DNA of 64,000 nt, from the NCBI GenBank assembly GCA_947598325.1, contig CANQFD010000006.1, positions 1 to 64,000 of the forward strand. The letters are read 5' to 3'. The notes under the pieces are model-generated. The model ran no database searches and was not told the DNA's origin. It saw only the letters and a program-made list of their open reading frames with translations. Source of the DNA: an uncultured Bacilli bacterium (GTDB lineage: Bacteria > Bacillota_I > Bacilli_A > RF39 > UBA660). Made by a program: the position numbers and the translations under genes. Position 1 is the stretch's first letter. Every line of letters starts with the position of its first letter. Positions 30,511-57,409 of this stretch are shown piece after piece.

Positions 30511-30633
30511 TTGCCAAAGAAAAAGAAAGATTTTTTAATCTTATCACTTATTCTTATTATCTTTTTACTATTAAAAAGCACTCAATCTAACAAGATTAAA
30601 TGCTATAAATATATTAGCGAGTACACATGTTAA
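30511..30633 (+). pseudogene. probable relic of a small hydrophobic toxin-like peptide (TTG start, no clear RBS)
   Basis: LPKKKKDFLILSLILIIFLLLKSTQSN...; 3' flank homologous to that of 31697..31789 but with a deletion. Confidence 0.35.
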
Positions 30634-30757
30634 GTATTCCCTTTTTTATTTTCTTGACAAATACAAAACGACTTTTAAAAAGTCGTTTTCTATTTTTACT
30701 CGAATTTTTCGAGTTTTTTATCAATCTGGTGCCCTAAAGGAAGGAGTACAACAACTT

Positions 30758-31597: not shown

Positions 31598-31626
31598 TTG
31601 TATTAAAAACAAATGTTTGATATAAT
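31598..31626 (+). promoter_or_regulatory. promoter of small hydrophobic peptide gene, locus 1
   Basis: TTGTAT-N17-TATAAT. Confidence 0.6.
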
Positions 31627-31696
31627 TTTATTAGGAATACTTAGTTAGCTTAGGTACTATTCTCCTTTACTTTTTAAAGTGGAAGGAGGTGAAGTT

Positions 31697-31789
31697 ATGA
31701 GAAAACAAGAGAAATATCTTTGTACTATCATAATACTCCTTATTATTGTGATTTTAATCATATTAATAAAAATAGTACCAACTGTATAA
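31697..31789 (+). CDS. 30-aa hydrophobic peptide, candidate type I toxin (MRKQEKYLCTIIILLIIVILIILIKIVPTV)
   Basis: Strong SD (GGAAGGAGGTG), basic N-terminus plus hydrophobic segment, dedicated promoter and terminator; same architecture as 57135..57227. Confidence 0.7.
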   Translation: MRKQEKYLCTIIILLIIVILIILIKIVPTV

Positions 31790-31874
31790 GTCGGTACTAA
31801 CCTAAAATTTTGGAATAGTACCTAACTCGTCAAAATTAGGTATTCCTTTTTTATTTTATTCAAGTTTCCTTGAC
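31766..31874 (-). ncRNA. putative antisense RNA overlapping the 3' end of the peptide mRNA
   Basis: Minus promoter TTGATA-N17-TATGAT with TG extension (31881-31909); minus terminator TAGTACC/GGTACTA followed by U5. Confidence 0.5.
31812..31852 (+). terminator. intrinsic terminator of peptide mRNA, locus 1
   Basis: GGAATAgtaCCTAA-ctcgtcaaaa-TTAGGTATTCC-TTTTTT. Confidence 0.7.
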
Positions 31875-31956
31875 ATATTCATCATAACATAAAAACGCAC
31901 TTTTATCAAGTACGTTTTCTATTTTTACTCGAATTTTCCGAGTTTTTTTATCAATT

Positions 31957-32032
31957 TGGTGGACCGTTAGGGATTCGAACCCTAGACCCACTGATTAAGA
32001 GTCAGTTGCTCTACCAACTGAGCTAACGGTCC
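31957..32032 (-). tRNA. tRNA-Lys(CUU)
   Basis: Cloverleaf, anticodon loop CUCUUAA, encoded CCA. Confidence 0.95.
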
Positions 32033-32681: not shown

Positions 32682-32757
32682 ACTTTATATAGTTTATTTT
32701 TTTTGATATAATTTTGTTAATTAATATAATATTAGGAGGATAGATTTAGTTATATTA

Positions 32758-32888
32758 ATGAGCGCCAGACCATTAAATTGGTGACGAGGTTGATAGTTAA
32801 TCGAAAATTCGGCGGATACTATCACGGAAATGCAAGTCGTTAGATATATAACAAAAAATAAAATCAAAATTATAACAAAATATATATC
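32758..32888 (+). ncRNA. glmS ribozyme (GlcN6P-responsive self-cleaving riboswitch)
   Basis: AGCGCCAGACC...GGTGACGAGGTTGATAGTTAATCGAAAATTCGGCGGATACTATCACGG...GCAAG core; directly upstream of glmS. Confidence 0.93.
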
Positions 32889-32921
32889 ATGCATATAATT
32901 AATTGATAGGAGAAATAAATT

Positions 32922-34736
32922 ATGTGTGGAATTGTTGGATATATAGGAAAGAATAAAAGGGCCAAAAATGTTGTAATCAATGGATTGGAAAGATTAGAAT
33001 ATAGAGGTTATGACTCTGCAGGTATTGCATTTTCAAATGACAATGAAATTGTAATTCAAAAGGAAGAAGGAAGAATTTCTAATTTAAAAAATAACATTGA
33101 TTTCAATAAAAAATCTAATATTGCTATAGGTCATACAAGATGGGCAACACATGGTGTACCTAGTAAAGATAATGCACATCCTCATAAATGTAATAAAATT
33201 ACTATTGTTCATAATGGAATAATAGAAAATTATATTGAACTTAAAGAAGAATTAAAAAAATTAGGTTATACTTTTAATTCTGAAACAGATACAGAAGTTG
33301 CATGTGCACTCTTAGATTATTTATATAAAGATAAAAAGAATATTAATTTAGCTATTAAAGAATTTCAAAAATTAACAAAAGGATCATATGCTATAGGAAT
33401 ATTATGTGATGACGATTTAGATTCTTTATATGCTATTAAGAAAAATAGTCCATTGATTATAGGAGTAAACGATAATGAAAACTATATTGCATCTGATGTA
33501 CCTGCTATACTTGATTTTACAAATAAATATATAACTTTAGAAGATGGAGAGTTTGCTAAAATCACTCCTTATAATGTACATGTATATGATTCTTTTGATG
33601 AAGTAGTCAAAGAAATTAAACAATTTGAAGGAAGTATTGAAGATATTAATAAAAATGGATATGAACACTATATGGCTAAAGAAATTAATGAACAACCTGA
33701 AGTATTTAAAAAAATGGCAACTATATATATAGATTCTAGCTCAGATAATATAATAAGTAATATGCCTGATCTAAGTAATTATAAGTCTATTACAATTGTT
33801 GCTTGTGGGAGTGCAATGCATGCTGGTCTTATTGGTAAAAATTTAATAGAAGAATATGGAGATATCCCTGTTAATGTTGAAATAGCTAGTGAATTTAGGT
33901 ATAAAAAATTATTTATTAACAAAGATTCATTAGTTATTGCTATATCACAATCTGGAGAAACTGCTGATACATTAGAAGCAATTAAAATAGCCAAGGAAAA
34001 AGGTTGTGATACTTTGGCAATAGTAAATGTCAATGGTAGTTCTATTTCAAGAGTTGTTTCAAAAGTATTATATACAAAAGCAGGTCCTGAAATTGCAGTA
34101 GCAACTACTAAAGCCTACTCTGCTCAAACTACATTACTTTCTTTTATAGCATATAGTCTTGCTAAAAATAGCAATGATAAAAATAAATTAAGTGAAATCA
34201 GTTCGTTTCTCAATGATTTAAATAAATTACCTATTCAAATGAGAGAAATTTTAGATAATGAAAAATATTATAAGGAGATAGCCGACCATATTTCTAAAAA
34301 TAATGATATATTCTTTATAGGACGTGGAATTGATTATGCATTATGTATGGAAGGATCTTTAAAATTAAAAGAAATATCATATATTCATAGTGAAGCTTAT
34401 GCTGCTGGAGAATTAAAACATGGTACAATTTCATTAATAGATAAAGGAACCCCAGTAATAGGCATAGTAACAGATAAAAAAATTGCTGATAAAACAATAA
34501 GTAATATTAAAGAGGTTAAATCAAGAGGTGCAAATGTTATTTATATTACAACTGATGAACTTAGTAAAAATGGTGACTTCTATGATATAAAGATAACTAT
34601 TCCAAAAACAAATGCATTACTTCAACCGCTTCTTACAATATTACCACTTCAATTAATTTCATATCATGTTGCTAAAAATAGAAACTGTGATATTGATAAA
34701 CCTAAAAATTTAGCTAAATCAGTTACCGTTGAATAA
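32922..34736 (+). CDS. glmS: glutamine--fructose-6-phosphate aminotransferase (isomerizing)
   Basis: MCGIVGYIGKN, LERLEYRGYDSAGIA, GHTRWATHG, KPKNLAKSVTVE. Confidence 0.98.
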   Translation: MCGIVGYIGKNKRAKNVVINGLERLEYRGYDSAGIAFSNDNEIVIQKEEGRISNLKNNIDFNKKSNIAIGHTRWATHGVPSKDNAHPHKCNKITIVHNGIIENYIELKEELKKLGYTFNSETDTEVACALLDYLYKDKKNINLAIKEFQKLTKGSYAIGILCDDDLDSLYAIKKNSPLIIGVNDNENYIASDVPAILDFTNKYITLEDGEFAKITPYNVHVYDSFDEVVKEIKQFEGSIEDINKNGYEHYMAKEINEQPEVFKKMATIYIDSSSDNIISNMPDLSNYKSITIVACGSAMHAGLIGKNLIEEYGDIPVNVEIASEFRYKKLFINKDSLVIAISQSGETADTLEAIKIAKEKGCDTLAIVNVNGSSISRVVSKVLYTKAGPEIAVATTKAYSAQTTLLSFIAYSLAKNSNDKNKLSEISSFLNDLNKLPIQMREILDNEKYYKEIADHISKNNDIFFIGRGIDYALCMEGSLKLKEISYIHSEAYAAGELKHGTISLIDKGTPVIGIVTDKKIADKTISNIKEVKSRGANVIYITTDELSKNGDFYDIKITIPKTNALLQPLLTILPLQLISYHVAKNRNCDIDKPKNLAKSVTVE

Positions 34737-57043: not shown

Positions 57044-57072
57044 TTGTTTTATAATATCAGTTATAGTATAAT
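57044..57072 (+). promoter_or_regulatory. promoter of small hydrophobic peptide gene, locus 2
   Basis: TTGTTT-N17-TATAAT. Confidence 0.6.
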
Positions 57073-57134
57073 ATTTGTAGGAACATTTGATGTGAGTGTC
57101 TGCCTCCAATCTTGAGAAAGAAAGGAGGGATACA

Positions 57135-57227
57135 ATGAAAAAAAGAACTTTTATTGTAAAAGTCCTTCGGCTTGTTGCTATCATTTTATTACTCCTTACC
57201 TTATTGGTAATAGCAATAAAAATATGA
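57135..57227 (+). CDS. 30-aa hydrophobic peptide, candidate type I toxin (MKKRTFIVKVLRLVAIILLLLTLLVIAIKI)
   Basis: AAAGGAGGGATACA SD, basic N-terminus plus hydrophobic helix, dedicated promoter and terminator. Confidence 0.7.
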   Translation: MKKRTFIVKVLRLVAIILLLLTLLVIAIKI

Positions 57228-57330
57228 CACTCAATCAGCATTGATAGAGTGTCAAATCTAAATTCTTAGAGGCGACATTCACTTGCGACTCAAATGTTCC
57301 TCTTTTTTATTTTATGCAAGTTTCCTTGAC
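57218..57330 (-). ncRNA. putative antisense RNA overlapping the 3' end of the peptide mRNA
   Basis: Minus promoter TTGCAA-N17-TATGAT (57337-57365); terminator TGACACTC...GAGTGTCA followed by U-rich tract. Confidence 0.5.
57268..57306 (+). terminator. intrinsic terminator of peptide mRNA, locus 2
   Basis: AGAGGcgACATT...AATGTtCCTCT-TTTTT. Confidence 0.65.
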
Positions 57331-57409
57331 ATATTCATCATAACATAAAAATGAACTTTTTGCAAGTTCTCTATATAAAAGTTCGAAAAAGTTCGAACAG
57401 AAATGTCAC

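Follow-up and report, generated by a model that had tools for sequence, protein, structure and literature searches.

In hok/Sok of plasmid R1 and its relatives, the toxin mRNA is closed by fold-back of its 5′ and 3′ ends and forms metastable structures. The transcripts of Fst/RNAII (par, Enterococcus) are convergent, share a terminator region and carry repeated complementary segments. In the AapA/IsoA system of Helicobacter pylori, IsoA pairs with the 5′ part of the AapA mRNA, and the 3′-trimmed mRNA is the active form. The full-length AapA mRNA (~220 nt), which encodes a small hydrophobic peptide, is made inert by a 5′-3′ long-distance interaction (PMC6733600). AapA3 shows successive hairpins that sequester the Shine-Dalgarno (SD) site and a synonymous ORF codon under constraint; metastable toxin-mRNA structures are discussed in the same work (PMC6733600). 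In TxpA/RatA and BsrG/SR4 of Bacillus subtilis, the antisense RNA converges on the 3′ end of the toxin mRNA with 100–140 bp of complementarity, the 3′ pairing leads to RNase III cleavage, and the bsrG mRNA hides its SD too (PMC6562991).

The locus described here lies in the window, a stretch of 64,000 nucleotides from an uncultured Bacilli bacterium (contig CANQFD010000006.1). The candidate unit spans ~310 bases (31598–31909; Table 1), and its parts were checked by direct reading of the sequence. It is very probably a type I toxin-antitoxin system of a new family. This assignment is based on the anatomy of the unit, predicted folding, covariation, conservation of the unit and of its promoters, and purifying selection on the ORF; that the unit is transcribed, that the peptide is toxic, that RNase III mediates decay and how activation occurs are inferences. 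The sense promoter, the SD-burying hairpin, the 30-aa ORF and the plus-strand terminator were each found where the first-pass annotation had placed them, as were the convergent minus-strand promoter and the minus-strand terminator, with the antisense RNA revised from ~105 to ~108 nt. The outer closing helix, the buried AUG and the ORF-internal anti-SD are additional to that description, as are a second copy of the unit in this genome with an identical peptide, an intact member further along the window and a remnant. Promoter-like matches occurred at chance density (15 found, 13.2 expected), and for this reason the promoter-like sites alone are unimpressive. Terminator matches exceeded chance (3 found, 0.3 expected), and the structure is the impressive part.

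Table 1. Coordinates of the predicted features of the unit and of the other members in the window.
Feature	Positions	Strand	Sequence, partner or evidence
Sense (toxin-side) promoter	TTGTAT 31598–31603, N17, TATAAT 31621–31626	+	sequence
Predicted sense RNA (toxin mRNA), ~220 nt	31633–31852	+	fold
Outer closing helix, 5′ arm	31633–31646	+	AGGAATACTTAGTT; partner AATTAGGTATTCCT, 31834–31847
Inner closing helix, 5′ arm	31650–31662	+	TTAGGTACTATTC; partner GAATAGTACCTAA, 31813–31825; 13-nt perfect complement
SD-sequestering hairpin	31662–31688	+	CTCCTTTACTTT 31662–31673 / AAAGTGGAAGGAG 31676–31688; sequence, fold
Shine-Dalgarno site	31683–31689	+	AAGGAGG
Predicted toxin ORF, 30 aa	31697–31789	+	MRKQEKYLCTIIILLIIVILIILIKIVPTV; relatives, pN/pS
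CTC-CTT inside the ORF, second anti-SD	31736–31741	+	codon usage, fold models
Hairpin around the stop codon	31771–31799	+	minus-strand reading is the antisense terminator
3′ arms of both closing helices	31813–31847	+	with the T-run, also form the sense terminator
Sense terminator	T-run 31847–31852 at its end	+	
Predicted antisense RNA (antitoxin), ~108 nt	31766–31874	-	three hairpins; 5′ TCAAG-GAAA-CTTGA
Antisense promoter	TTGATA 31909–31904, N17, TATGAT 31886–31881	-	extended −10 TGtTATGAT
Minus terminator	hairpin 31799–31773 and T-run	-	
Second intact member, subfamily 4	57067–57365		ORF 57135–57227, MKKRTFIVKVLRLVAIILLLLTLLVIAIKI
Closing arms of the second member	57079–57090/57290–57301 and 57094–57106/57269–57280		
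Antisense promoter of the second member	−10 57342–57337, −35 57365–57360	-	
Degenerate member (remnant)	~30511–30665	+	peptide-like frame KKKKDFLILSLILIIFLLLLK; by inspection

A conserved antisense promoter/leader stretch, just beyond the sense terminator, served as the search anchor. In this bacterial family, the larger draw had it in 156 of 289 genomes and another draw in 43 of 99; the reversed control pattern of the anchor had no match in the family genomes. Elsewhere in the class, 1 of ~343 genomes carried it. That lone unit, in a genome from another family of the class, is subfamily-4-like and could be a case of misbinning or transfer. Among the matches listed, every named genome record with the anchor was a metagenome-assembled genome; the labels were almost always uncultured Bacilli, Tenericutes or the like, Candidatus Ventrenecus among them. 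The anchored loci yielded 117 clean units, which fell into five subfamilies with peptides beginning MRKQEKYLC..., MTKREFSQF..., MNKKDFLI..., MKTKTFIIK... and MKKKDLLIS..., respectively. The whole unit, including both promoters and both terminators, is present at over 100 sites in five divergent versions; the pairing segments differ in sequence among the subfamilies, and every subfamily keeps the ring described below. This recurrence with maintained pairing gives strong in silico support to the type I reading that the first-pass annotation had proposed from a single locus. The units apparently form a large and so far undescribed family of gene switches, carried by uncultured bacteria of the gut. 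Anchor matches ranged from 0 to 17 per genome; the genome with 17 has ~1.3 Mb. Good copies of the peptide at this locus were found in about a dozen other genomes of the same family, in tandem in one, and the identical peptide is encoded on contig C8 of this genome. A phage, plasmid or viral origin was considered and rejected, as the peptide was not found in the phage or plasmid records searched, nor the anchor in the viral contigs searched.

RNA folding had been proposed in the first-pass annotation as a check, and both predicted transcripts folded far more stably than shuffled sequences. The sense RNA folded at −68.6 kcal/mol (z = −7.7, matched by 0 of 200 shuffles) and the antisense RNA at −31.6 kcal/mol (z = −4.8, with 0 of 200 shuffles as low). 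Two helices joining the 5′ and 3′ ends close the predicted sense RNA into a ring, in which the SD, held by the 5′UTR hairpin, and the AUG, held by the ORF start, are both buried. The inner helix is the 5′/3′UTR complementarity noticed earlier, which is perfect as reported. A closed ring was predicted in all five subfamilies, with a closure probability of ~0.9 for the first 12 nt, median fold z values from −7.1 to −10.4 by subfamily, and unpaired probabilities of 0.07–0.30 for the SD and 0.00–0.50 for the AUG. The median energies of the own 5′/3′UTR duplexes were −38 to −43 kcal/mol, versus −20 to −27 kcal/mol for swaps between subfamilies. In the non-redundant set, the 5′UTR paired better with its own 3′UTR than with the median 3′UTR of other subfamilies at 95 of 95 loci, and only 1.9% of foreign 3′UTRs paired as well as the own one. 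The consensus helices within subfamilies had 95–99% paired cells, compared to 30–56% with the partners slid by 1–3 columns, and contained double changes, most of them in subfamilies 3 and 4; the loci inside one subfamily are related and are not independent observations.

Of the 3′ and 5′ trims modelled for this locus, nearly all left the SD paired at ~80% and the AUG paired almost completely. In consequence, a simple hok-like activation by 3′ trimming was not reproduced for subfamily 1, and we do not claim it. In the subfamily 3 model, the unpaired probability of the SD rose slightly, from 0.14 to 0.30, and an opening of the SD by 3′ trimming is only hinted at. When the 5′UTR anti-SD was left out of the model, the SD paired instead with the ORF-internal CTC-CTT.

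The predicted antisense RNA is convergent with the mRNA and complementary to its last ~87 nt. Its terminator is the stop-codon hairpin of the toxin, and its U-run is templated by the C-terminal lysine codons (AAA at this locus). The extended antisense −10 was present in 111 of 117 loci, a conservation that is partly by construction because part of the −10 lies within the search anchor. The antisense −35 lies outside the anchor; it had at least five of the six consensus bases at the right spacing in 64 of 117 loci, against 0.5 of 117 at control offsets. Moreover, nearly all 117 loci had the GAAA-capped 5′ hairpin on the antisense RNA. On the sense side, the −10 was exactly TATAAT in 61 of 95 loci, and the −35 was poorly conserved, barely exceeding control offsets in the same set. 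For seven units of this genome, the energies of antisense-mRNA pairing were −128 to −170 kcal/mol within a unit and −28 to −74 kcal/mol between subfamilies; the two subfamily-3 units cross-paired at −111 to −113 kcal/mol.

We also observed that the antisense −35 sits within a hairpin followed by a T-run on the minus strand (31887–31925, CGTACTTGATAAAAGTGCG-TTTTT). The second unit has a matching minus-strand hairpin and T-run over its antisense −35 (57343–57380, GAACTTGCAAAAAGTTC-ATTTTT). The element resembles a terminator belonging to the tRNA upstream. A hairpin of 6 bp or more spanned the antisense −35 spot in 30% of loci and in 6% of shuffles, and the units may be placed at terminators.

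The peptides have 24–30 aa across the five subfamilies and are preceded by a ribosome site. Their frame is kept in the homologous loci, with pN/pS of 0.51 in subfamily 1 and 0.19–0.50 in the other four, and the peptide is therefore under selection. CTCCT occurred in 15 of 15 subfamily-1 ORFs, with 0.0 expected from codon usage, and an internal anti-SD in 22 of 28 subfamily-4 ORFs, with ~0 expected. The genome uses CTC for leucine at a frequency of about 0, yet this codon is invariant in subfamily 1, within CTCCTT, the complement of AAGGAG. Judging from codon usage, some ORF codons, such as CTC, are chosen for the RNA.

The putative membrane peptide is probably toxic to its own cell. Purifying selection on the ORF and the charged N-terminal motif, which is kept within subfamilies, would also suit an antisense-regulated small membrane protein that is non-toxic, e.g. 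one that modulates a transporter or envelope stress; the peptide would then be regulatory, with the RNA logic unchanged. We consider this explanation unlikely. The five divergent peptides have in common only the small size, the basic N-terminus and the hydrophobic run, and a start site concealed several times over befits a product whose leakage has to be prevented. Furthermore, the wide variation in copy number (0 to 17 anchor matches in a genome), mixed-subfamily tandem arrays and turnover at one site fit a housekeeping regulator worse than addiction-type modules.

The first unit adjoins a tRNA-Lys gene and the second intact unit a tRNA-Leu gene. In total, 33 of 100 loci were within 400 nt of a tRNA gene, compared to 10.6% of random points, which were not matched for intergenic position. 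The orthologous tRNA-Lys site in sister species was either empty or occupied by a subfamily-4 unit or a 3′ remnant. The remnant in our window keeps the stop-codon hairpin and the terminator arm, and its 5′UTR and antisense leader are gone. A 48-base duplication ending ...TACTCGAATTTTTCGAGTTTTTTATCAATCTGGTG follows the remnant (30684–30731) and the intact unit (31913–31961), respectively, and only the latter copy runs into tRNA-Lys. Elsewhere in this genome (contig C4, 884–1993), four units of mixed subfamilies form a tandem array beside a tRNA gene, with ~350 nt spacing. A glmS ribozyme (32750–32898) was located upstream of a 604-aa ORF (32922–34736), as expected.

Short, intergenic, multi-copy units enriched near tRNA genes, and a tRNA-Lys site that holds different subfamilies or none in sister species, could also be produced by a dispersed selfish or structural repeat (MITE-like) that spreads through its hairpins, with the ORF and the antisense RNA being incidental. 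Such an origin is very improbable, since the reading frame is kept (pN/pS 0.19–0.51) together with a ribosome site and a start codon, and promoters and terminators are conserved on both strands; the closing arms differ between subfamilies, and no terminal repeats common to all subfamilies were seen. The hairpins and terminators could belong to a cis-acting leader or attenuator of a downstream gene, to which we give almost no credence because the unit has its own terminator, its context varies between copies, and the immediate downstream neighbour here, tRNA-Lys, is on the opposite strand.

We thus return to the type I toxin-antitoxin system, for which we propose the following working. A weak promoter would drive the ~220-nt mRNA, whose 30-aa product, a hydrophobic peptide flanked by lysines and crossing the membrane once, would have the cell’s own membrane as its target. 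In the nascent mRNA, the ribosome site would be hidden by the 5′UTR anti-SD and possibly also by the ORF-internal one. After synthesis of the terminator arms, each 5′ segment would pair with its 3′ partner, and the RNA would close into an inert form that buries the SD and AUG. The ~108-nt antisense RNA would be driven by a stronger convergent promoter, and its duplex with the 3′ end of the mRNA would be expected to undergo RNase III cleavage, removing any opened mRNA. If the antisense supply failed, or if nuclease-trimmed mRNA refolded, the peptide would be made and growth would stop.

Through one conserved antisense leader, a superfamily was revealed that is present in roughly every second genome sampled from an uncultured lineage. 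With genomes of ~1 Mb, each extra gene should be costly to this lineage. The more than 100 loci in five divergent versions constitute a natural alignment, in which compensatory change shows the closed-mRNA architecture, and the diversification of type I modules without cross-talk becomes a directly testable question. A broader reading, which we put forward tentatively and with some doubt, is that this lineage of genome-reduced gut Bacilli carries a self-diversifying superfamily of toxin modules addressed through RNA, with as many as 17 copies in a genome of ~1 Mb. The pairing sequence of each subfamily would be reused for closure, both terminators and antisense recognition; as every subfamily has its own pairing sequence, modules in one cell would be mutually insulated, and they would spread as tiny addictive elements beside tRNA terminators.

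The peptide had been said to match no nameable family, and searches of Pfam, NCBIfam, PADLOC and Rfam likewise gave no match near the cut-off, with the power limited by the short peptides. The libraries searched contain models of hok, Fst, Ldr and other curated toxin families, and no Pfam or NCBIfam model of these and no Rfam antitoxin RNA matched. A SecE hit in one subfamily (E = 0.02) was below the cut-off of that model and looks like generic hydrophobic similarity; it was rejected. Weak protein matches outside the family (E above 0.05) were without the surrounding anatomy and were discarded. RF39, presumably the GTDB group of this lineage, was not mentioned together with toxin-antitoxin in the literature searched, whose coverage is incomplete, and the novelty of the family is therefore provisional.

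Compared with the known systems, the family is predicted to join AapA/hok-like mRNA closure to TxpA/BsrG-like antisense geometry. The predicted mRNA resembles that of AapA/IsoA in its 5′-3′ closure, its length of ~220 nt and its SD-sequestering hairpins, one of which involves the ORF. Unlike in AapA/IsoA, the antisense RNA is convergent on the mRNA 3′ end, and the trimming models of subfamily 1 do not reproduce an opening. With TxpA/RatA and BsrG/SR4 the units share, in silico, an antisense RNA of ~100 nt convergent on the 3′ end and a low-GC Gram-positive host. They differ in their peptides of 24–30 aa, for which neither Pfam nor NCBIfam gave a match, in the two helices that close the mRNA from 5′ to 3′ end, and in occurring on the chromosome in multiple copies, frequently close to tRNA genes. 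The fold-back closure of the mRNA ends is hok/Sok-like; the peptide differs in length and sequence, the antisense RNA covers the 3′ end and not the leader, and no leader-ORF coupling as in hok was seen at these loci by inspection. Convergent transcripts, a shared terminator region and repeated complementary segments recall Fst/RNAII, from which the units differ in the closed-ring mRNA and in having no match to a Pfam toxin family. Of the three analogies drawn in the first-pass annotation, Fst is the weakest. By analogy, the mRNA would have its best functional counterpart in AapA/IsoA, and the antisense geometry in TxpA/RatA or BsrG/SR4.
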